DNA from: a virus
DNA length: 39,593 nt
Virus record (IMG/VR): IMGVR_UViG_3300000117_000054
Span: 1 to 39,593 of that record
Direction: 5' to 3' (one strand)
The position numbers and the translations under genes are program-made. Below the pieces are notes generated by a model. The model was not told the origin of the DNA and did not search any database. It saw only the letters and a program-made list of their open reading frames with translations. This document shows, one piece after another, positions 1,721 through 35,455 of the stretch; position 1 is the stretch's first letter; each line of letters begins with the position of its first letter.

Positions 1721-1936
1721 TTAGAGCTTAAGGATCGGCTTGGTGAACTCGATATCTCCGTAACCGTACTTGGTGAGGAAGATGCCGTTACCGTTGTCGA
1801 TCTCTCCGAACTCAAGACTGTAGTCAGAGTTGGCGATAGCTGTGAAGCCTGGGAACTCATTGGTGGCGTTTTCCCAAAGGAGGGACCAGTTGCCGATGTA
1901 GATGTGGCCGCCTTGGGATGTGATGTTGAAGATCAT
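1721..1936 (-). CDS. Hypothetical protein, 71 aa
   Basis: This is a short acidic protein (MIFNITSQGGHIYIGNW...) with alternating hydrophobic residues suggesting beta structure and Gly/Asn-rich turns. No family is recognised. GGAG lies upstream, and its ATG overlaps the stop of the 1933-2295 gene (ATGA), so translation is probably coupled. It is the last gene of the overlapping run that begins near 5.9 kb. Confidence 0.7.
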   Translation of the reverse strand: MIFNITSQGGHIYIGNWSLLWENATNEFPGFTAIANSDYSLEFGEIDNGNGIFLTKYGYGDIEFTKPILKL

Positions 1937-2295
1937 TTTTTCTCCTTGGTTTGGGTGTTGTACAGCTTGGGACGGATGGAACCAAATCCAGACTTGATTC
2001 CAATCACGCTGACTCCTGAATCGGAGTAGGCGTCAAATATATCACACTTAGTGAAAGCCCTTACGGCATCGCTGGAAACCACACCGTCTGGAAAACGGAA
2101 AGTAACAAGGTGCGCATCAGTCGGCAGGTCACTGCTCAGGTCATTGAGCTCGCTTTCACTGGTTTCAGACATGATGTGCTGAACACCGTAAAGCTGGAGA
2201 GTCGTTGCAAACTCTGGGCTTGGCTCGACATTAAGGTCAAGTGCTGCATCAAGGAAGTGGTTGGCGTTGCAACCGGGGTGGACAAAAGTAGTCAT
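1933..2295 (-). CDS. Hypothetical protein, 120 aa
   Basis: The product begins MTTFVHPGCNANHFLDAALDL and is acidic with mixed helix and strand content. No family is recognised. The ATG at 2295 is preferred over a TTG at 2301 because it overlaps the upstream stop (ATGA) and has GAGG in front. Its 3' end overlaps the start of 1721-1936 in the same way. Confidence 0.72.
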   Translation of the reverse strand: MTTFVHPGCNANHFLDAALDLNVEPSPEFATTLQLYGVQHIMSETSESELNDLSSDLPTDAHLVTFRFPDGVVSSDAVRAFTKCDIFDAYSDSGVSVIGIKSGFGSIRPKLYNTQTKEKK

Positions 2296-2465
2296 GAGCA
2301 ACCTCGGATAACGGAATGGATGCGGCCTGGGTGTAAGGCAAGGGCAGGAACCTCATGCCTTGCAGCCTCAATAGCCTCTGTGACATGCTCTGCTTCAACG
2401 CAGATGTCAATCTTGGCTCCCTCGAAGTTGAGGTAGCGGATCGTGTAGCGGGATGGATCAGTCAT
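2292..2465 (-). CDS. Hypothetical small protein, 57 aa
   Basis: The 57-residue product begins MTDPSRYTIRYLNFEGAKID and contains a probable amphipathic helix (VTEAIEAARHEV). Both ends overlap neighbours by ATGA: its start overlaps the HNH gene stop and its stop overlaps the next start at 2295. This double coupling is the main evidence that it is real. Function is unknown. Confidence 0.7.
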   Translation of the reverse strand: MTDPSRYTIRYLNFEGAKIDICVEAEHVTEAIEAARHEVPALALHPGRIHSVIRGCS

Positions 2466-2953
2466 TGGAGCTCCTTAAATGCGGTCAGATAGGCAGCGTG
2501 GGCTTCCTCAGCTGTTTCAAAGTAGCCGAGACACTTGTGCTTGCCTTCGATCCAAATCGTAGCACGGAAAGGACGGGATCGGCACCTTTTGTCGAAACTG
2601 ACGCCCTTGAAGCCTGTTTCGTTACATGCTGTCGTATTTTGGTGTTGATCCCTAGTGCTGAGCCAGCGCAAATTAAATGGGTGATTGTCTCGGTGGTTAA
2701 GGTTGATATGGTCAACCTGCATGTCTTGACGATCTTCACCCGTCTTCATCTTCTGTATGATGCGGTGAACGGTGTAGTAAACACCGTTAAGGCGAATGCC
2801 CATATATTTACCAGACAGGCAGCCAGCAGGGTCTCCAGCCTTTCTGACATTGCTGTAGGTCGCCTTAGCGTATCGAAGCCCGGTAGGGCTGGTGCTGTCG
2901 ACGTAGAAGCGGTCGAACAACTCCTCTATGCTGGGCATCGATCTGTAGGTCAT
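2462..2953 (-). CDS. HNH homing endonuclease with AP2-type domain
   Basis: The protein is 163 aa. The central part has the HNH core: VHRIIQ, then DHINLNHRDN and NLRWLS, with the His/Asn residues that form the beta-beta-alpha metal site. The C-terminal part (FKGVSFDKR ... GYFETAEEAHAAY) is the AP2-like DNA-binding fold usual in this family. The N-terminal phrase VDSTSPTGLRY recurs in the HNH genes at 16227 and 24065. Such free-standing genes code for site-specific DNA nicking or cutting enzymes that spread themselves. It starts by ATGA overlap with the lyase gene stop and ends the same way, so it is inserted cleanly in the operon. Confidence 0.93.
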   Translation of the reverse strand: MTYRSMPSIEELFDRFYVDSTSPTGLRYAKATYSNVRKAGDPAGCLSGKYMGIRLNGVYYTVHRIIQKMKTGEDRQDMQVDHINLNHRDNHPFNLRWLSTRDQHQNTTACNETGFKGVSFDKRCRSRPFRATIWIEGKHKCLGYFETAEEAHAAYLTAFKELQ

Positions 2954-3369
2954 AGTCTAGTCTCCAGGTATTGTCCTGCAAGAACCAGCTTACCTGTCTC
3001 TATGTTGAAGCCAACAGTTTGCCTGAGACGGAAGAAGTCGTCTTCGCACAACCTCAATTCTTCACGAAAACGGCAACCGTTGTACTGGGTCCTCATCACA
3101 AGGCAGTCTTCATCAATCACTTGGATCTTAGAAGAGTTGGCGCCTTTACCAAAATAATCTCTAGACCGATGCAAGGTGTCGCCCTCAAGAGTTAGCACCA
3201 TCTCTCCACTGGTTTGACCCTTCCAGTCAATGGTGAATCGGCCATGCTCGTCTTCCGTCATGGTGAAGTTTGTGGTCAGGTTCACCGGCTCAAGCTTAGG
3301 AGCGTACAGATAACGCCTCTGGCTGGTCCAGGAGCCGATAGAACGGCGTAGGAAAGTGCGTGCAGTCAT
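2950..3369 (-). CDS. S/U-type (CpcS/CpeS/CpeU-like) phycobiliprotein lyase
   Basis: The protein is 139 aa. Near the N terminus, FLRRSIGSWTSQRRYLYAP matches the family signature (GxWxSQRxYY). Further on come GDTLHRSRDYF, LVMRTQYNG, FREELRL and FRLRQTVGF, ending LVLAGQYLETRL; order and spacing follow the CpcS/CpeS/CpeU lipocalin-like chaperones. Those enzymes bind a linear tetrapyrrole in a beta-barrel and attach it to cysteines of phycocyanin, allophycocyanin or phycoerythrin. This version is shorter than the usual 170-200 aa, mainly between the N-terminal signature and the barrel's second half. A role in maintaining or altering host light harvesting is inferred. It lies inside the overlapping small-gene operon, with ATGA at both ends. 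Confidence 0.78.
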   Translation of the reverse strand: MTARTFLRRSIGSWTSQRRYLYAPKLEPVNLTTNFTMTEDEHGRFTIDWKGQTSGEMVLTLEGDTLHRSRDYFGKGANSSKIQVIDEDCLVMRTQYNGCRFREELRLCEDDFFRLRQTVGFNIETGKLVLAGQYLETRL

Positions 3370-3662
3370 AATGATCCTCCAAAAGCTTTTTCGATGGCCT
3401 CTTTGGCCTGGACGTGTTTCTCGCTGTATTTGTAAGCCTTCATGAAGGCCAACTCAAACAGCTTAGTGGTGGTCAGTGACGTAATTGCCAACATGGTGGG
3501 GTCTTCCAGTTGCCTGTAGACCTCTGGCTGCCAATCAGCCATAACCCTGATGAAGTCTCTGACCATATAGATGGCCTCTTCGTCTGGCATGTTGCCGACC
3601 ATCTCCCGAGCAATCTGCTCGGCGTAGTCAACCATTTCTGAGGGCTCAAATTGTGCGGTCAT
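3366..3662 (-). CDS. Hypothetical helical protein, 98 aa
   Basis: The product begins MTAQFEPSEMVDYAEQIARE and appears entirely alpha-helical with acidic and amphipathic segments. No family is recognised. The start at 3662 overlaps the previous stop (ATGA), which is better supported than the in-frame codon at 3677. It lies directly upstream of the phycobiliprotein lyase gene. Confidence 0.72.
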   Translation of the reverse strand: MTAQFEPSEMVDYAEQIAREMVGNMPDEEAIYMVRDFIRVMADWQPEVYRQLEDPTMLAITSLTTTKLFELAFMKAYKYSEKHVQAKEAIEKAFGGSL

Positions 3663-3862
3663 TTTCTTTGGTAGCAACGTTGTGAAATAGCTGAAGCTTC
3701 CTCGGGTTCAAGGATCCCTTCCCTTACTGCCACGTTAAGCTCGTGGTCCACCTCTCGACAAAGAGCGTCATTACCAAGTTCGTCGGGGGAGACCTCAAAG
3801 GCAACAAGGATGCCAATACTGCAGACAGTAAGGGCCAGTAAGAATCTGTTTAGGGTGCTCAT
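3659..3862 (-). CDS. Small membrane-anchored protein, 67 aa
   Basis: MSTLNRFLLALTVCSIGILVAF forms a single N-terminal hydrophobic segment (about residues 5-22), either an uncleaved anchor or a signal. An acidic helical tail with two cysteines (ALCREVDHEL and SQRCYQRK) follows. Both ends overlap neighbours by ATGA. Family and function are unknown. Confidence 0.7.
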   Translation of the reverse strand: MSTLNRFLLALTVCSIGILVAFEVSPDELGNDALCREVDHELNVAVREGILEPEEASAISQRCYQRK

Positions 3863-3951: not shown

Positions 3952-4193
3952 AGTAAGCGTTGTGCGATAGCGAAGATGGATGCGGCGATGAAGAAATAGC
4001 TGAGACGTGCCATGTCCTTGGCGTCGGTATGGAGGAAGTAAGGGATCCTCAAGGTCTCGGCAACAAGCTTACCCACTGCGCCCATGATCACATCGCCGGA
4101 AATGATCATAGCCATGTAGGCAACGATGCCAAGGTAGACCGAGTAGTTCTTGAGCTCGTAAGCTTTCCCACGGGTCACGTAACGCTTAATCAT
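3948..4193 (-). CDS. Small membrane protein, 81 aa
   Basis: The product begins MIKRYVTRGKAYELKNYSVYLG. It has two likely membrane segments (LGIVAYMAMIISGDVIMGAV and LSYFFIAASIFAIA) joined by a loop of about 25 residues. The start at 4193 is chosen over 4253 because it lies at the preceding gene's stop. ATGA overlap joins it to the next gene. Function unknown; a holin-like or inner-membrane role is possible but unsupported. Confidence 0.72.
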   Translation of the reverse strand: MIKRYVTRGKAYELKNYSVYLGIVAYMAMIISGDVIMGAVGKLVAETLRIPYFLHTDAKDMARLSYFFIAASIFAIAQRLL

Positions 4194-4470
4194 GGCTGGC
4201 CTCAGCAGAGAGAAGGTCAACAGTGTCGCCTTTGCTTGTAATGCTGACGACACGGCGAGCGTCGAAGCTGCGCCATTGGCCGATCTTAGTGTCTACAACC
4301 CGAAAGATGTTGGGGTCGGAGCACTTGGTACCTGTCCCTTTGACCTCACCATACTGCTTGGGGTTAATGGTGATTTTGCGCTGGGTGCCGTCCTTCTTCT
4401 CAAAGATGACAGAAACAAAAGTAGAGCCAGCGCTCGAAAGGATTTCGTTGATGAGCTGTGCGTTAGTCAT
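4186..4470 (-). CDS. SH3-like beta-barrel phage protein
   Basis: The protein is 94 aa. After a short helix it reads VSVIFEKKDGTQRKITINP ... DTKIGQWRSFDARRVVSI. This is the strand pattern of the small SH3-like barrel proteins common in phages (DUF2693-like), in which a KKDGT hairpin and a WRSF strand are typical. Their function is not established. The start at 4470 is preferred over 4509 because AAGGAGG lies just upstream. A weak TACGAT -10 lies near 4498-4503. Confidence 0.7.
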   Translation of the reverse strand: MTNAQLINEILSSAGSTFVSVIFEKKDGTQRKITINPKQYGEVKGTGTKCSDPNIFRVVDTKIGQWRSFDARRVVSITSKGDTVDLLSAEASHD

Positions 4471-4527
4471 GGCGGGAACCTCCTTGGGTATGTGAGTATC
4501 GTACAGCAAAAGGGAGAGGAAAGCAAG

Positions 4528-11304: not shown

Positions 11305-13623
11305 TCAAAGTCCTTTTTCTCGTTCGTCTGATTCAGCTTTAGCGATGCAACTAGCAGAAGTACAACCGGCAACGCTTTCGATGCTCCAGTCAGAGGAATC
11401 GTACTTGTTCAGCAGCTCAAGGAAACTGACATCAGGGTCAACTGTAATCTCTTGAATTGCCACTAGGTCGTCGTACTTCTCCTTGGAGATGGGCTCCATT
11501 GGCAAACGAGGAAAGGTACCACCGTCAACGTCAAACCGAGCGAGCAAAGCTGCTGAGATGTAGCCACCGTTGTCCTGGATGTTCTCATGAATGAGCTTAG
11601 AGAGGGTCTCGATCTCGTTTTCGCGGAGTTCGATAGTAGCCGACGTGTTGTGATCGGTAAAGGAATTCTGCACGTTGATATACAACCCCCACTGAGCCTC
11701 TACAGGGAGCTGAGAAAGGTCGAACTGATCACAGCCAGGCACGTTAGCCCAGCTTACTTCTGTTGGGATCTCCACCAGGACTTCTTGGACCCGAGGATCA
11801 CTAATGTCGTCAAGAAGATTGCCTTCCTCGTCACGTGCTGATTGAGCTGGGATGACGCTGTAGCCGTACTCGATGAGAGCTGGTACCAAAGGATCATTGA
11901 CGCCAAGGGTGATACGACGGATAAAACGCTGGGCTTTAGGTGCATGCCAGCCAGAGGAGGCGCCGGTAAGCAAGGACTTGGTGCCAGCAGGTTGAACAGT
12001 GGTGATGCGACTTGGAACGCGGATCCCATGCTTTTCACAATAATCCTTGACACCTGCATGAGCAGCCCTACGCCAGCGGGACAGGAAATGACGTTCCTGT
12101 GCTTCGTACATATCTTTTGCACGCTTGCCCTGGCGGCCTTCCATCATCCATTTCAGCCAATCGTAGCCACCAGAATGAACCATGAAATCAAAAAAGCCAG
12201 TGAAAGAAACACCAACGATCGGATCGATCTCCCGACTGTAGCGGTACCTTTCGTGGACGAATTCATGCTGTAGTAGCGCAGCGACCTGGAGTCCAGCGGC
12301 ATAAAACGCGGCGTCTTGGGCTTCATAATCACTCGGGTCAATAGTGTTCAGGTGGACTTCAGCCAGGTTGCAGTGGAAGTCACGGCCAATGATTTCGCCA
12401 CAGGGATTCAAGCCGTAGCGATCCATGCGGTGCTCAAGCTCACGAGGAGCAATGTCTCCAGCCTGGCCGATCAGGTACCTTTCAGCAGCCTTGCGACCTT
12501 GACTGGTGTAAAGCTTCAGGAAGTTCCGCTTCTTGGCTTCAGTGTTAAGCAGGTCAACATTAGCCCGTGCGACAGCCTCAGGAACGTACTGAATAGCACC
12601 TTCGCCAGAGTTGAATTGACTCCTTACGGCATCCTGTACCTCCTTAAGGCTTGGCTTACTGTGGTAGCAGCGCGTGTGGTTGGCCATGCGAAGGGCTTCC
12701 TTTTTTGGATCAACCCTCCAGTTGCCTTCTGAGTCCTGGCTATAGAGCCCCATCTTGGCGGTAGCAGCCTCTGAGTCGCCCTGAGAGAACTGACGCATGC
12801 CAGCGGACCGACGAATGTTACCAGCAACAATACAGGTAGCAGCTTCATCGATTAAAAGGCAGGCTTCGACAGAGGTAAGCTGGCGACCCTTTGCTCCGTT
12901 AAGGATGTCGATCACCTTCCCGAACATACTGGGAAGCTTGACGGGGTTAGCTGTGCCACCAAAACCCTTCAAACGCTTACCGCTTGGGCGGACTTCTGAC
13001 AGGTCGACGTAAACGTGACAGTCAGTATTCCTTAAGACACTGGTTGCCTGGTAAAGGAGCGCCATGTAAGCGTCCTTCCAGCCCTTACGAGAGTCCCCAA
13101 CACGGATGTGGAGTTCATGGTCATCCCAGATGCATTTGGTCTCTTCTAGGCCTGGCTCGGTACCAGTTTCAGAAACAGTTTCCAGAGTGAGAGTCCTTGT
13201 GACCGGAGGCAGTTTACAGATTACGTTCTGCTCCAGGACCGCTCCAGTGCCAGATCCCTGCATAGCAAGGTCCACCAGGAGACCGAAGGCCTGCAGGTCC
13301 TTAATATGAGTTGATGTGCAGTTGTAATAGCCAGAAAAGTTCTCGGGCTTCTTGCTCCAGTCAGTACCAGCCACCCAGAAGGCACGGCCAGAAGGAAATG
13401 CCCGTTGGGCCAAAGCTTGCTCCCTTACAAGCGTATACTCCTCTTGAGTGTAGCCACCAATCTCCGCAATATCATTAACAGTCCGAAGCATTGCTTCTTG
13501 GAAATTCTCCCTTGTGCCGTCCTCTTTGCGGCGGCTGTACGTCCGCATCATAACCACCTCGGCACTGGGTGCTGAGTCTCGAAACGGCTTGGACTCTGTG
13601 GGCTGGAATTCAAAAATGCTCAT
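11305..13623 (-). CDS. Adenosylcobalamin-dependent (class II) ribonucleotide reductase
   Basis: The protein is 772 aa and resembles the monomeric ribonucleoside-triphosphate reductase of Lactobacillus leichmannii. Visible residues are C102 (SGYYNCTST) and C418 (FHCNLAEV), the reducible pair. LNPCGE gives N406, the thiyl-radical Cys408 and Glu410. C754/C759 (GCTSASC) form the C-terminal shuttle. QPAGTKS follows later in the barrel. It reduces ribonucleotides without oxygen or a second subunit but needs coenzyme B12-type cobalamin, presumably from the host. The ATG at 13623 (MSIFEFQPTE) is chosen because it overlaps the HNH stop by 14 bases; the longer frame to 13725 lies inside the HNH gene. 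Confidence 0.93.
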   Translation of the reverse strand: MSIFEFQPTESKPFRDSAPSAEVVMMRTYSRRKEDGTRENFQEAMLRTVNDIAEIGGYTQEEYTLVREQALAQRAFPSGRAFWVAGTDWSKKPENFSGYYNCTSTHIKDLQAFGLLVDLAMQGSGTGAVLEQNVICKLPPVTRTLTLETVSETGTEPGLEETKCIWDDHELHIRVGDSRKGWKDAYMALLYQATSVLRNTDCHVYVDLSEVRPSGKRLKGFGGTANPVKLPSMFGKVIDILNGAKGRQLTSVEACLLIDEAATCIVAGNIRRSAGMRQFSQGDSEAATAKMGLYSQDSEGNWRVDPKKEALRMANHTRCYHSKPSLKEVQDAVRSQFNSGEGAIQYVPEAVARANVDLLNTEAKKRNFLKLYTSQGRKAAERYLIGQAGDIAPRELEHRMDRYGLNPCGEIIGRDFHCNLAEVHLNTIDPSDYEAQDAAFYAAGLQVAALLQHEFVHERYRYSREIDPIVGVSFTGFFDFMVHSGGYDWLKWMMEGRQGKRAKDMYEAQERHFLSRWRRAAHAGVKDYCEKHGIRVPSRITTVQPAGTKSLLTGASSGWHAPKAQRFIRRITLGVNDPLVPALIEYGYSVIPAQSARDEEGNLLDDISDPRVQEVLVEIPTEVSWANVPGCDQFDLSQLPVEAQWGLYINVQNSFTDHNTSATIELRENEIETLSKLIHENIQDNGGYISAALLARFDVDGGTFPRLPMEPISKEKYDDLVAIQEITVDPDVSFLELLNKYDSSDWSIESVAGCTSASCIAKAESDEREKGL

Positions 13624-14146
13624 TAGTGGTTTCTCGGTAAAGTTTGCAGACTGCGGCATGCGCCTCTTCAGGAGTGCCGAAGGTCGGGGTCCAGTGGAGG
13701 ACTCCCATGTGTGTGAACTGGCCATGATAACGGCCAGAAGGCGAGCCGTCGCGTTGCTTGTGCTCTACGACGCCCTTGAGGCCCGTGCGGTTTTCCGCCT
13801 CGGACATCTGGATCTTAGCATGGTGACGTCGATGATCGCCACGCTTTTCGTAGACAAGATTACTAAAACTGTTGTTCAGCTTGTTCTCGTCTATGTGGTG
13901 GACGTCCATCGGGTAATCGAAATGATTTGCCGTGAAAGCAGCTATCACCATGCGATGGACTAATCCAAGTTTGTTGATCGTGCTGGGATTAACCGTGCAA
14001 TGTCCACTAGCATTCTGACGCTGCTTCAGGACGCGGCCAGAGATCTTGCGACGGTTGCCCAAAGAGCACCTGTCGAAGGTTCTGATCACGCCGTCTGCAG
14101 AGGCATAGTACTCGGGGACACCCTTGATGGGCAGGAATAAGTCCAT
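13610..14146 (-). CDS. HNH homing endonuclease with NUMOD4 and AP2-type domains
   Basis: The protein is 178 aa. The N terminus, IKGVPEYYASADGVIRTF, is a NUMOD4-like DNA-binding motif. The HNH core follows: VHRMVIAAF, DVHHIDENKLNNSFSNL. The C-terminal TGLKGVVEHK ... FGTPEEAHAAV is AP2-like. The gene sits directly 5' of ribonucleotide reductase and overlaps its start by 14 bases, so the two are co-transcribed. Free-standing homing enzymes often lie next to the conserved gene they target; here the reductase gene in related phages is the obvious candidate. No intron is seen in the reductase itself. Confidence 0.92.
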   Translation of the reverse strand: MDLFLPIKGVPEYYASADGVIRTFDRCSLGNRRKISGRVLKQRQNASGHCTVNPSTINKLGLVHRMVIAAFTANHFDYPMDVHHIDENKLNNSFSNLVYEKRGDHRRHHAKIQMSEAENRTGLKGVVEHKQRDGSPSGRYHGQFTHMGVLHWTPTFGTPEEAHAAVCKLYRETTNEHF

Positions 14147-16060: not shown

Positions 16061-16258
16061 TTAAGAGTTTCGTAGGAACCTGGCGAGTTCGGTGAAGCCA
16101 CCGACGGGTTCGCCATCGATCTCAATATACGGTACAGTTTTCCATAATGCACTCTTTTCGTTAACTTCTATGTACTGGATCCCCTTCAAATCCAGTAGCT
16201 TCTTGGCCTTAACGCACCAAGGACAATCAGGAAGGGTGTTGATAATTGCGTTTGGCAT
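16061..16258 (-). CDS. Glutaredoxin
   Basis: The protein is 65 aa, shorter than the usual 80-100. The active site CPWC (residues 12-15) follows the strand MPNAIINTLPD. TVPYIEIDGEPVGGFTEL gives the cis-proline TVP loop and the GG glutathione-binding turn. It transfers electrons from glutathione to disulphides. In this phage the natural client is the C-terminal cysteine pair of the ribonucleotide reductase. Its start lies inside the 3' end of the upstream HNH gene (32-base overlap). Confidence 0.9.
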   Translation of the reverse strand: MPNAIINTLPDCPWCVKAKKLLDLKGIQYIEVNEKSALWKTVPYIEIDGEPVGGFTELARFLRNS

Positions 16259-16676
16259 CGATAGCCTCCTGTAGTGTTTTGTAAGTTTTGCTCCAGCTAC
16301 CGGTCTTGTGGAAACGATAGCCGCCAGTAGTATTCTGGTGAATGCCCTGAGGTAGGCCGTTGGCCTTAGGCTCGAATACCCTGTTCTTCATGTTAACCGA
16401 ATGGTCGCACCAGCGCAAGTTGTCCAGGCTGTTGTTGTGGCCATTCCTGTCCAGATGGTCGACAAATAGGGGATTTTGCCCATTCATCTTAATCATGATG
16501 ACGCGGTGGACGTAGTGGGTCTTACCTTCCCACTTGCAGGCCCAGTACCTGGTAGTTTTCCAGCCAACCGGCTTACCCTTTCTGCGACGAGGACCGCCAT
16601 CGCTGGCCCACACCAGGCCCGAAGGCGAGGTGGAGTCAACGACGACGGCGTCGAGTAGGCTCTGCGGGATGATCAT
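16227..16676 (-). CDS. HNH homing endonuclease
   Basis: The protein is 149 aa. The VDSTSPSGLVW phrase near the N terminus is shared with the HNH genes at 2462 and 24065. The HNH core is HYVHRVIMIKMNG, FVDHLDRNGHNNSLDNLRW. The C-terminal half (GLPQGIHQNTTGGYRF ... TLQEAIDAKRNY) is AP2-like but shortened. The ATG overlaps the metallophosphatase stop (ATGA) and the 3' end covers the start of glutaredoxin, so the insertion lies between two host-like genes of the same unit. Confidence 0.9.
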   Translation of the reverse strand: MIIPQSLLDAVVVDSTSPSGLVWASDGGPRRRKGKPVGWKTTRYWACKWEGKTHYVHRVIMIKMNGQNPLFVDHLDRNGHNNSLDNLRWCDHSVNMKNRVFEPKANGLPQGIHQNTTGGYRFHKTGSWSKTYKTLQEAIDAKRNYQHPS

Positions 16677-24064: not shown

Positions 24065-24622
24065 TCAGAATGGGTCGACCTCCAGGCGAAGGGCTAGTGC
24101 TTGACAATAGGCCTCTAATTCTGTGCCGAAACTGCCAACATGGATCAACCTGCGCTCTGTCGGATGCTGGAAACGTGAAACCCAGCGATCAGCCCTCTTG
24201 CAGTACGTGACAAACTTGTGTTGCGAATACTTCTTGGTGCTCTCCACCCTCCGATGGAATTGCTGGCGAGAATTGGTAGCAGGTTCCAGGTTCTCTAGTC
24301 TGTTGTTGGTGGTATCCCAATCCAGGTGGTTAATAGTCAAAGGATAGCAATCCTTCTTGGTTGCCAGCAGCCACACTATGCGATGAGCTGGAACACGTTT
24401 CCCCATGATCTGCACCCGATAGTAGCCGTTGGGCTCCAGTCCTCCAGCGTCTTTTCCTGCTCTGGAGGGTCTTGTCGGGTGGGACCTCCATCGAACACCT
24501 GAGGGGCTGGATGCATCCACTACCAGGTGGGTGAAAACGAAGTCCTTGATTGCGGGCGACAACGGCTTTATACGTCCAGCTCGACCTGCCCTTCGTCCAG
24601 AGGAATGATGCGGATAATCCAT
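24065..24622 (-). CDS. HNH homing endonuclease
   Basis: The protein is 185 aa if started at 24622. It contains VDASSPSGVRWRS (the shared N-terminal phrase), PAHRIVWLLATKKD, TINHLDWDTTNNRLENLE (HNH core with Asn-His) and a C-terminal AP2-like part (SQHKFVTYCKRADRW ... VGSFGTELEAYCQ). The ATG at 24622 overlaps the RusA gene by 55 bases; a TTG at 24562, after the RusA stop, is an alternative start that still keeps the whole domain. It separates RusA from the RecE-like nuclease, two recombination genes. Confidence 0.88.
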   Translation of the reverse strand: MDYPHHSSGRRAGRAGRIKPLSPAIKDFVFTHLVVDASSPSGVRWRSHPTRPSRAGKDAGGLEPNGYYRVQIMGKRVPAHRIVWLLATKKDCYPLTINHLDWDTTNNRLENLEPATNSRQQFHRRVESTKKYSQHKFVTYCKRADRWVSRFQHPTERRLIHVGSFGTELEAYCQALALRLEVDPF

Positions 24623-32445: not shown

Positions 32446-33594
32446 TTATTTGACTTCCATATACCACCCGTCATGGTTATTCGCGATAAGCCAGCGCTTC
32501 ATTAGATTCTTTCTGCTGTACCTTTGATTCTTGCCATCAGTGGGGCCAGACTTGGGATAGCCGCCACCAACCAGCGAAAGCTCTCCGAATGGGTCGTGAA
32601 CGTGGAAGAACTCATCATCATGGCCGATCAGGCAAATCCAATGACCTCCTCCAGATGGACTGTCAATCCCTCCGTGGTGCAGGATGCCGATCGGAACCGG
32701 AAAACCTTTGTCTAGTTGGTCGATCAGGTCTTGCTCGCTACCATCTGTATGGAAGTCAACAGTGAATCCTAAAGACTCAGCTGCAGCCACTTGGGCTTCA
32801 GAAGAAACGCTGTCCCCAAACTTGAAGACTTCATTGAGGTACCAGTCGTCATCTCCAAGGATTGCATCAGGGTTCACGTAATCCAAAGCCATTGCCATCG
32901 AACTGGAGAAGCACATGCGCTCACCGTGGCCTGTCTTCGAGTCCCTTTGCCAAAAATACGGCACATCCAGTGGAAATCCTACGTCAATCGCCTCAGAAGG
33001 GCTCTCAGAGCCTCTGTAAGCGCGTTTAAACACTTCCAGGACTATTGGGTCAATCGCTGCTTCCAGGCCTCTCCAGGCCTCTAGCTGGTGAGGTAGGCCT
33101 TTGTCGTATTTTGCAGCATCTTCCAGGAATGACTTTGGCGCCGAGCCGACAGGAGTACAGGCAAGCTCCACTTCTGCATCACGCCTCCTAACAAGTCCAG
33201 GCATTGGGCCATTGCCACCGTTGACCCATTTAGGCAGCTCTTCCTTGAATACAGAGCATTTCGCTTCGCCTGCGTTTAACCTTTTTCTGAGCGTCGAGTC
33301 CTCAAGAGCAAACCAACCACAGTTGTAAGCAAAACTAACTAGAGCGTCGAACTCGTATTGGTTTAGCTCAACAGTGATCAGCGTATTCACGGCCTCCTCA
33401 AACCTTGCAAGGTCTTTTTTTAATAACGCTCCAGCTTGTTCAATATTGATTACAAGTCCAGGCTTGACTTCTGGTCCGGTATGACCATAGCCAATCGTCC
33501 AGGGATCGCCCCTTGTTCCTGGGTCAGGATAGGCAGTTAACTCTAAACCCTCAAACTCTTTAATAAGGTCAAGACCAGCAGGAGAAGTCTTCAT
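32446..33594 (-). CDS. Two-domain endolysin: GH24 muramidase plus C39-like cysteine peptidase
   Basis: The protein is 382 aa. Residues 1-145 are a T4-type lysozyme domain: IKEFEGLELTAYPDPG ... WTIGYGHT with catalytic Glu15, Asp24 and Thr33, and QYEFDALVSFAYNCG. Residues 205-382 resemble C39-like papain-fold peptidases (DVPYFWQRDS): Cys228 in GERMCFSSSMAM, His318 in GGGHWICLIGHDD, and Asp334 in HVHDPFG form the likely catalytic triad. One protein could thus cut both the glycan strand and the peptide links of peptidoglycan. No signal peptide is seen, so release would need a holin. A late-type motif overlaps the upstream gene's stop. Confidence 0.88.
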   Translation of the reverse strand: MKTSPAGLDLIKEFEGLELTAYPDPGTRGDPWTIGYGHTGPEVKPGLVINIEQAGALLKKDLARFEEAVNTLITVELNQYEFDALVSFAYNCGWFALEDSTLRKRLNAGEAKCSVFKEELPKWVNGGNGPMPGLVRRRDAEVELACTPVGSAPKSFLEDAAKYDKGLPHQLEAWRGLEAAIDPIVLEVFKRAYRGSESPSEAIDVGFPLDVPYFWQRDSKTGHGERMCFSSSMAMALDYVNPDAILGDDDWYLNEVFKFGDSVSSEAQVAAAESLGFTVDFHTDGSEQDLIDQLDKGFPVPIGILHHGGIDSPSGGGHWICLIGHDDEFFHVHDPFGELSLVGGGYPKSGPTDGKNQRYSRKNLMKRWLIANNHDGWYMEVK

Positions 33595-34975: not shown

Positions 34976-35455
34976 ATGAGACGCTCTTTACCCACTCAAG
35001 AGCGCCTTCGGGCGCTTTTTTCGTACCAGGATGGTCAGCTATTCTGGAAGACTGGCAGCGGCAAGGCCATGGCTGGAGACCCTGTTGGCCACCTGACTAG
35101 GCAGGGCTACATTAAGACTGGCCTAGACTATGCCGAGTACCAAGTTCACAGACTGGTATGGAAGTGGCACTATGGAACAGAGCCAGACGTGCTTGATCAC
35201 GTAAACGGCATACGTCACGACAACAGAATTGAAAACCTTGAGCCCGTAACCAATCGAGAAAACATCAATAGGGGCTTTGACCGTCGGTCTGAGCTACCTC
35301 GCGGAGTCCGAAAGGTTCGCGAAAAATACCAAGCAAGAATATACGCAGATGGCAAGCGTCTTTATCTTGGCCTCTACGGAACCATAGAGGAAGCTGCAGC
35401 CGCTTACAATGACGCCCTCCGAAAAGCTGCAAGGGTTGACTGTAGAGATAATTAG
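34976..35455 (+). CDS. HNH homing endonuclease with internal terminator
   Basis: The protein is 159 aa. LPTQERLRALFSYQDGQLFWK is the usual N-terminal module. HRLVWKWHYG, DVLDHVNGIRHDNRIENLEP is the HNH core (His, Asn, His-like residues), and GVRKVREKYQAR ... YLGLYGTIEEAAAAYN is AP2-like. Codons 9-15 (ERLRALF) are also a strong terminator hairpin (35002-35021). The promoter places the start at or near the ATG. It is the only HNH gene here on the plus strand and lacks the VDSTSP phrase of the others. Confidence 0.9.
   Translation: MRRSLPTQERLRALFSYQDGQLFWKTGSGKAMAGDPVGHLTRQGYIKTGLDYAEYQVHRLVWKWHYGTEPDVLDHVNGIRHDNRIENLEPVTNRENINRGFDRRSELPRGVRKVREKYQARIYADGKRLYLGLYGTIEEAAAAYNDALRKAARVDCRDN
35002..35021 (+). 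terminator. Terminator hairpin inside the HNH coding sequence
   Basis: Plus strand GCGCC-TTCG-GGCGC plus six T. It would end transcripts from the 34814 gene and also those from the HNH gene's own promoter after about 45 nt. CGCTC at 34982-34986 can pair with GAGCG at 35000-35004, which overlaps the terminator's left arm, so an alternative fold is possible. Confidence 0.8.

Follow-up and report, generated by a model that had tools for sequence, protein, structure and literature searches.

Lyases of the S type are already known from cyanophages, both through GenBank annotations and through the description in 2023 of a phage-specific cpcV clade in T4-like cluster C phages and in S-CBWM1 (PMC10665884). 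This clade does not group with host cpcV, and among T4-like phages cpcV was then known from cluster C alone, besides S-CBWM1 (PMC10665884). A literature search returned no biochemical test of any phage S-type member. The DNA analyzed here, a 39,593-nucleotide stretch referred to as the window, comes from a viral record of 43,774 bases, and its first-pass annotation had singled out an S/U-type lyase as a less familiar phage gene. That gene is not new, being annotated in S-CRES1 to S-CRES3, S-CREM2 and S-CBWM1 and described in PMC10665884. The S-CRES-like phages extend the range given in PMC10665884, although GenBank already annotates the gene there; the papers searched did not mention it. A siphophage lineage thereby joins the cyanophages with an S-type lyase. 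Most likely, it is an auxiliary metabolic gene carried by a Synechococcus siphophage akin to S-CRES1, and it encodes a compact CpeS-family bilin-handling lipocalin.

The window phage and its lyase gene

The window phage is related to S-CRES1, with identities of 83% for the portal, 75% for the class II ribonucleotide reductase (RNR) and 62% for the dUTPase, and with many small genes collinear. S-CRES phages are named as siphophages, and because of this kinship and naming we call the window phage a siphophage. The virus infects marine or estuarine cyanobacteria. A phycobilisome-bearing host, as proposed at first pass, agrees with our results, a Synechococcus host being likely. Misassembly of host DNA into a phage contig was ruled out, as genes for terminase, RNR and ThyX lie within the window; it is further countered by the portal and RNR identities to S-CRES1 and by neighboring genes that are syntenic with other phage contigs. 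Elsewhere in the window (32446-33594), a predicted endolysin joins a lysozyme domain to a C39-like peptidase domain.

The lyase gene lies on the minus strand (2950..3369), where an intact reading frame of 139 amino acids runs from an ATG at 3369 to a stop that ends at 2950. A strong GGAGG ribosome-binding site stands immediately 5′ of the ATG, within a Shine-Dalgarno region at 3370..3382 of the same strand (GGAGGATCATT). ATGA overlaps join the gene to both of its flanking genes on the minus strand, a 103-amino-acid gene upstream (3366..3677) and an HNH endonuclease gene directly behind (2462..2953); together with the ribosome-binding site, these overlaps indicate that the lyase gene belongs to a translationally coupled run. 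The upstream gene, which had no Pfam match, is kept in that place in the loci L010, L011, L012 and L033. The HNH gene (PF13392, E value of 2.8e-9) is a probable free-standing homing endonuclease and, among the loci compared, sits between the lyase and the next small gene only in the window; synteny comparison found it absent from this place in S-CRES1 and in L010 to L012. The gene at 1933..2301 (minus strand) is kept in order downstream of the lyase in S-CRES1 and in L010 to L016. In L010 to L012 the lyase is found between the same two neighbors, the 103-amino-acid gene and the gene at 1933-2301, and its position is thus stable in the S-CRES1-like lineage.

Two further observations were made on this gene content. 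The 39.6-kb window contains five genes of the HNH_3 type, probably for free-standing homing endonucleases, some of which include NUMOD4 or AP2-like parts (2462-2953, 13610-14146, 16227-16676, 24065-24622 and 34976-35455). In addition, a small WYL_2-like (Sm-like barrel) protein, whose Pfam score was below the cut-off, is encoded at 4186-4509, and its gene is kept near the lyase in ten related loci.

Family assignment

The 139-amino-acid protein almost certainly belongs to the S-type (CpeS-like) lyase family. It matched Pfam CpeS (PF09367) with 38 bits against a curated cut-off of 23.3 (E value of 1.9e-9); 21 of 21 phage homologues matched the same family. The best-matching stretch covered profile positions 97-169, the C-terminal half, and the weakness of the N-terminal half is probably due to a missing internal segment. 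Searches of PHROGs and NCBIfam with the protein gave no match. The protein contains every motif quoted in the first-pass annotation, and the 21 phage homologues show no variation at most of the motif residues; with the profile match and the fold described below, the proposal of an S/U-type lyase family protein in a cyanophage is borne out. A chance reading frame or look-alike was ruled out by the Pfam match, the fold and the conservation. Comparison with the nearest measurable relatives, L011 and L012, gave dN/dS values of 0.13 to 0.14 with dS near saturation, and with that reservation the gene is under purifying selection.

The T-type family (PF06206, CpeT/CpcT) had no match in the window record, and the Pfam scan of the lyase returned CpeS alone, which rules out a T-type identity. 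As a separate observation, adjacent CpeT-family matches occur in a phage record that also carries an S-type lyase (L028; G011:C1:28918-29782), so that both lyase types may be present in one phage.

Predicted fold and pocket residues

AlphaFold2, run on 21 sequences comprising the window protein and phage loci, yielded a model (pLDDT 96, pTM 0.85) with an N-terminal helix and ten strands that span residues 12-138. A Foldseek search of the PDB with this model returned CpcS/Ycf58 (3bdr; E value of 2.1e-8, TM 0.77) as the top match and the S-type lyase CPES (4tq2; E value of 1.5e-7, TM 0.78) as the second. By sequence, a PDB search with the single lyase sequence gave no useful match, and a profile search reached 4tq2 (E value of 5e-4). 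We therefore predict with confidence a 10-strand antiparallel lipocalin-like barrel whose nearest solved relatives are CpcS and CPES, in line with the barrel that the first-pass annotation had expected. Neither outcome that it had named as refuting, a missing HMM match or a different fold, was observed.

Eleven residues (G12, W14, S16, R18, W49, R68, Y72, Y96, E103, R114 and R116) are identical in all rows of an alignment with host lyases, and E136 and R138 are nearly so, the CPES row of this alignment stopping short of both. W49, R114, R116 and E136 are invariant in the 21 phage members and align with W69, R148, R150 and E170 of a Pseudanabaena lyase and with W84, R161, R163 and E183 of the 4tq2 chain. 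The latter we take to be the bilin-binding Trp69, Arg146, Arg148 and Glu168 of CPES, and the four pocket residues are presumed to function as in the CpcS1 and CPES literature. The phage signatures RRY, REExR, RxRQT and GQYxExR are likewise invariant or nearly so.

Other features of classical CpcS/CpeS were absent from the phage proteins in the alignment. The classical His (H21) is not found, position 21 being Leu; the second Trp (W75) falls in a gap; and a segment of about 20 amino acids between strands 2 and 3 (residues ~44-63), which we take to be helical in the solved structures, is also a gap. The phage members range from 139 to 169 amino acids, and all lack this internal segment together with loops. 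Recent truncation of a host gene was ruled out, as the compact form is common to 27 phage-type members. The first-pass description of a protein shortened to 139 amino acids thus holds insofar as the protein is compact; the shortening is no recent truncation and consists of internal loop and helix losses common to the phage clade. The comparison shows a gene maintained by selection, its pocket unchanged and its exterior reduced.

Phage homologues and cellular relatives

A tblastn search of phage records identified 15 records with the gene, all from Synechococcus phages. S-CRES1 and S-CRES2 (57% identity) and S-CRES3 (50%), with genomes of 71 to 74 kb, carry the annotation "S-type phycobiliprotein lyase," the homologues in S-CREM2 (40%) and S-CBWM1 (40%) are annotated cpcV, and those of S-H34, S-N03, S-B68 and four MW02 phages are hypothetical proteins. 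The annotated start of S-CRES1 gp54 (L003:20073; gene at L003:19980-20423) drops the conserved GSWxSxRRY, and the true ATG is probably L003:19980. In IMG/VR, a profile scan retrieved 23 loci, of which the nearest were 69 to 70% identical; L002, from the first viral scan, was discarded as a spurious short match within a terminase gene. A profile scan of genomes gave one contig (L033; DGOV01000074.1, 82,066 bases), from the MAG "Proteobacteria bacterium UBA4457." This contig carries psbA beside the phage-type S-type lyase, and its genes are syntenic with the window phage, which indicates that binning placed cyanophage DNA in a proteobacterial genome.

Host proteins for comparison were taken from cyanobacterial plasmids, a small cellular sample. 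The 27 phage-type rows, among them the MAG contig, all fell into a single clade with support of 99/96 (100/100 in a reduced set), which includes the proteins of S-CREM2, S-H34, S-N03, S-B68 and S-CBWM1 and stands apart from host lyases. The clade is maintained across siphophages, T4-like cluster C phages and S-CBWM1. The match to CpcS/CpeS/CpeU lyases that had been proposed for the window protein holds at the level of the family; it does not extend to a grouping with the sampled classical CpcS/CpeS-like host proteins, whose His and second Trp are absent.

The nearest sampled cellular group consists of a third S/U paralogue of Kovacikia minuta and Pseudanabaena PCC 7367. These CpcU/CpcV-like proteins share RRYY, RxRQT and GQYLExR with the phage proteins and have, like them, a short loop where classical lyases carry an insert; the Kovacikia protein is 28% identical to that of the window. 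Unlike the phage proteins, they retain the ~20-amino-acid segment. The group is without the classical His, yet its members are named phycobiliprotein lyases, and NCBIfam holds no model for it. A paralogue that lacks the His but keeps the segment suggests that the His was probably lost before the phage clade arose and that loss of the segment is phage specific. With a small cellular sample and long branches between the groups, we treat this view of the origin as a lead.

Possible roles during infection

The low dN/dS, the conserved position and the invariant pocket together argue for what is probably a working protein, and a role in the bilin loading of phycobiliproteins is likely; the same role was proposed for phage homologues by the authors of PMC10665884. 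During infection, the compact lipocalin would take up host-made phycobilin non-covalently inside its barrel, where the invariant Arg, Glu and Trp would hold the bilin and its propionates. The bilin would then be handed to freshly synthesized subunits of the host phycobiliproteins, probably at Cys-84-type sites, and the antenna would stay charged during phage replication. The partial window record, the S-CRES1 and S-CRES3 genome records and 12 related viral records (several partial) yielded no bilin reductase and no heme oxygenase, so that the bilin would have to come from the host. Matches to psbA were present in 6 of 16 records and hli-like matches in 3, one or both occurring in 7 of the 16, in keeping with a photosynthesis-supporting strategy.

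Against this reading we count the missing helical insert, H21 and W75, and a nearest sampled cellular group that is itself a paralogue; some S/U homologues do not act as lyases (reviewed in PMC2327270). Whether the phage protein is a stand-alone transferase is finely balanced, and we lean slightly against it. That it serves as a bilin carrier, a compact barrel that would hold bilin tightly, shield it and pass it on to a host lyase, is a real possibility, if one we would not expect to prevail. PhiCpeT, the T-type protein of cyanophage P-HM1, is reportedly compact and binds PEB with no transfer by itself; the phage S-type proteins are compact in the same way and have lost the helix, loops and His/Trp of classical S-type lyases while retaining the pocket residues. 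However, it is a supposition that the lost segment is required for transfer, and the cellular paralogue group that lacks the same His is still named phycobiliprotein lyase. A broader proposal is that the phage S-type clade forms a functional class of its own, in which a minimal barrel, lacking both the His and the helical segment, acts as bilin carrier or modifier of host lyases and is no autonomous ligase; we consider this rather unlikely. If true, phage proteins of the S and T types would have reached a compact bilin-reservoir function independently.

A non-autonomous, CpcU-like partner that forms a heterodimer with host CpcS and alters its speed or substrate choice has a precedent in Synechococcus 7002, where CpcS requires CpcU (PMC2327270, PMC6273044). 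The cellular paralogues with which the phage proteins group do form a class separate from classical S proteins, one that may be CpcU, CpcV or another, and we regard this explanation as unlikely. It is very improbable that the protein is a lipocalin-like protein that has departed from bilin chemistry for some other phage function. Its identity to classical lyases is 20 to 25% by sequence alignment, and Foldseek places the barrel also in nitrobindins and fatty-acid-binding proteins; however, it is CpcS and CPES in particular that match the fold best, the Trp, two Arg and Glu of the bilin pocket are invariant, and the isolated phages that carry the gene are exclusively Synechococcus phages. Retaining the reading of a bilin-handling protein in phycobiliprotein loading, we note that the gene makes a mechanistic question testable, namely, whether phage lyases ligate pigment or merely feed host enzymes.

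Comparison with known systems

The closest described counterparts are those of S-CRES1, S-CRES2 and S-CRES3 (OQ587939-41), which belong to the same phage lineage and encode the same compact protein at 50 to 57% identity; S-CRES1 also has the same downstream neighbor genes. The window copy differs from these in being followed directly by an inserted HNH endonuclease gene. The cpcV proteins of T4-like cluster C phages (S-CREM2, S-H34, S-N03 and S-B68) and of S-CBWM1 fall in the same phage-only clade and share its motifs and size class, but they are 38 to 41% identical to the window protein and come from myoviruses with another gene neighborhood. T-type CpeT/CpcT proteins (PF06206) are likewise phage phycobilin lyases with a lipocalin-like barrel, of a different Pfam family. 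Classical CpcS (3bdr) and the cryptophyte CPES (4tq2) share with the phage protein the 10-strand barrel, the GxWxSxR start and the W/R/R/E pocket, whereas the phage protein is without their ~20-amino-acid segment, two loops, H21 and W75 and is 17 to 19% identical to them in structural alignments.
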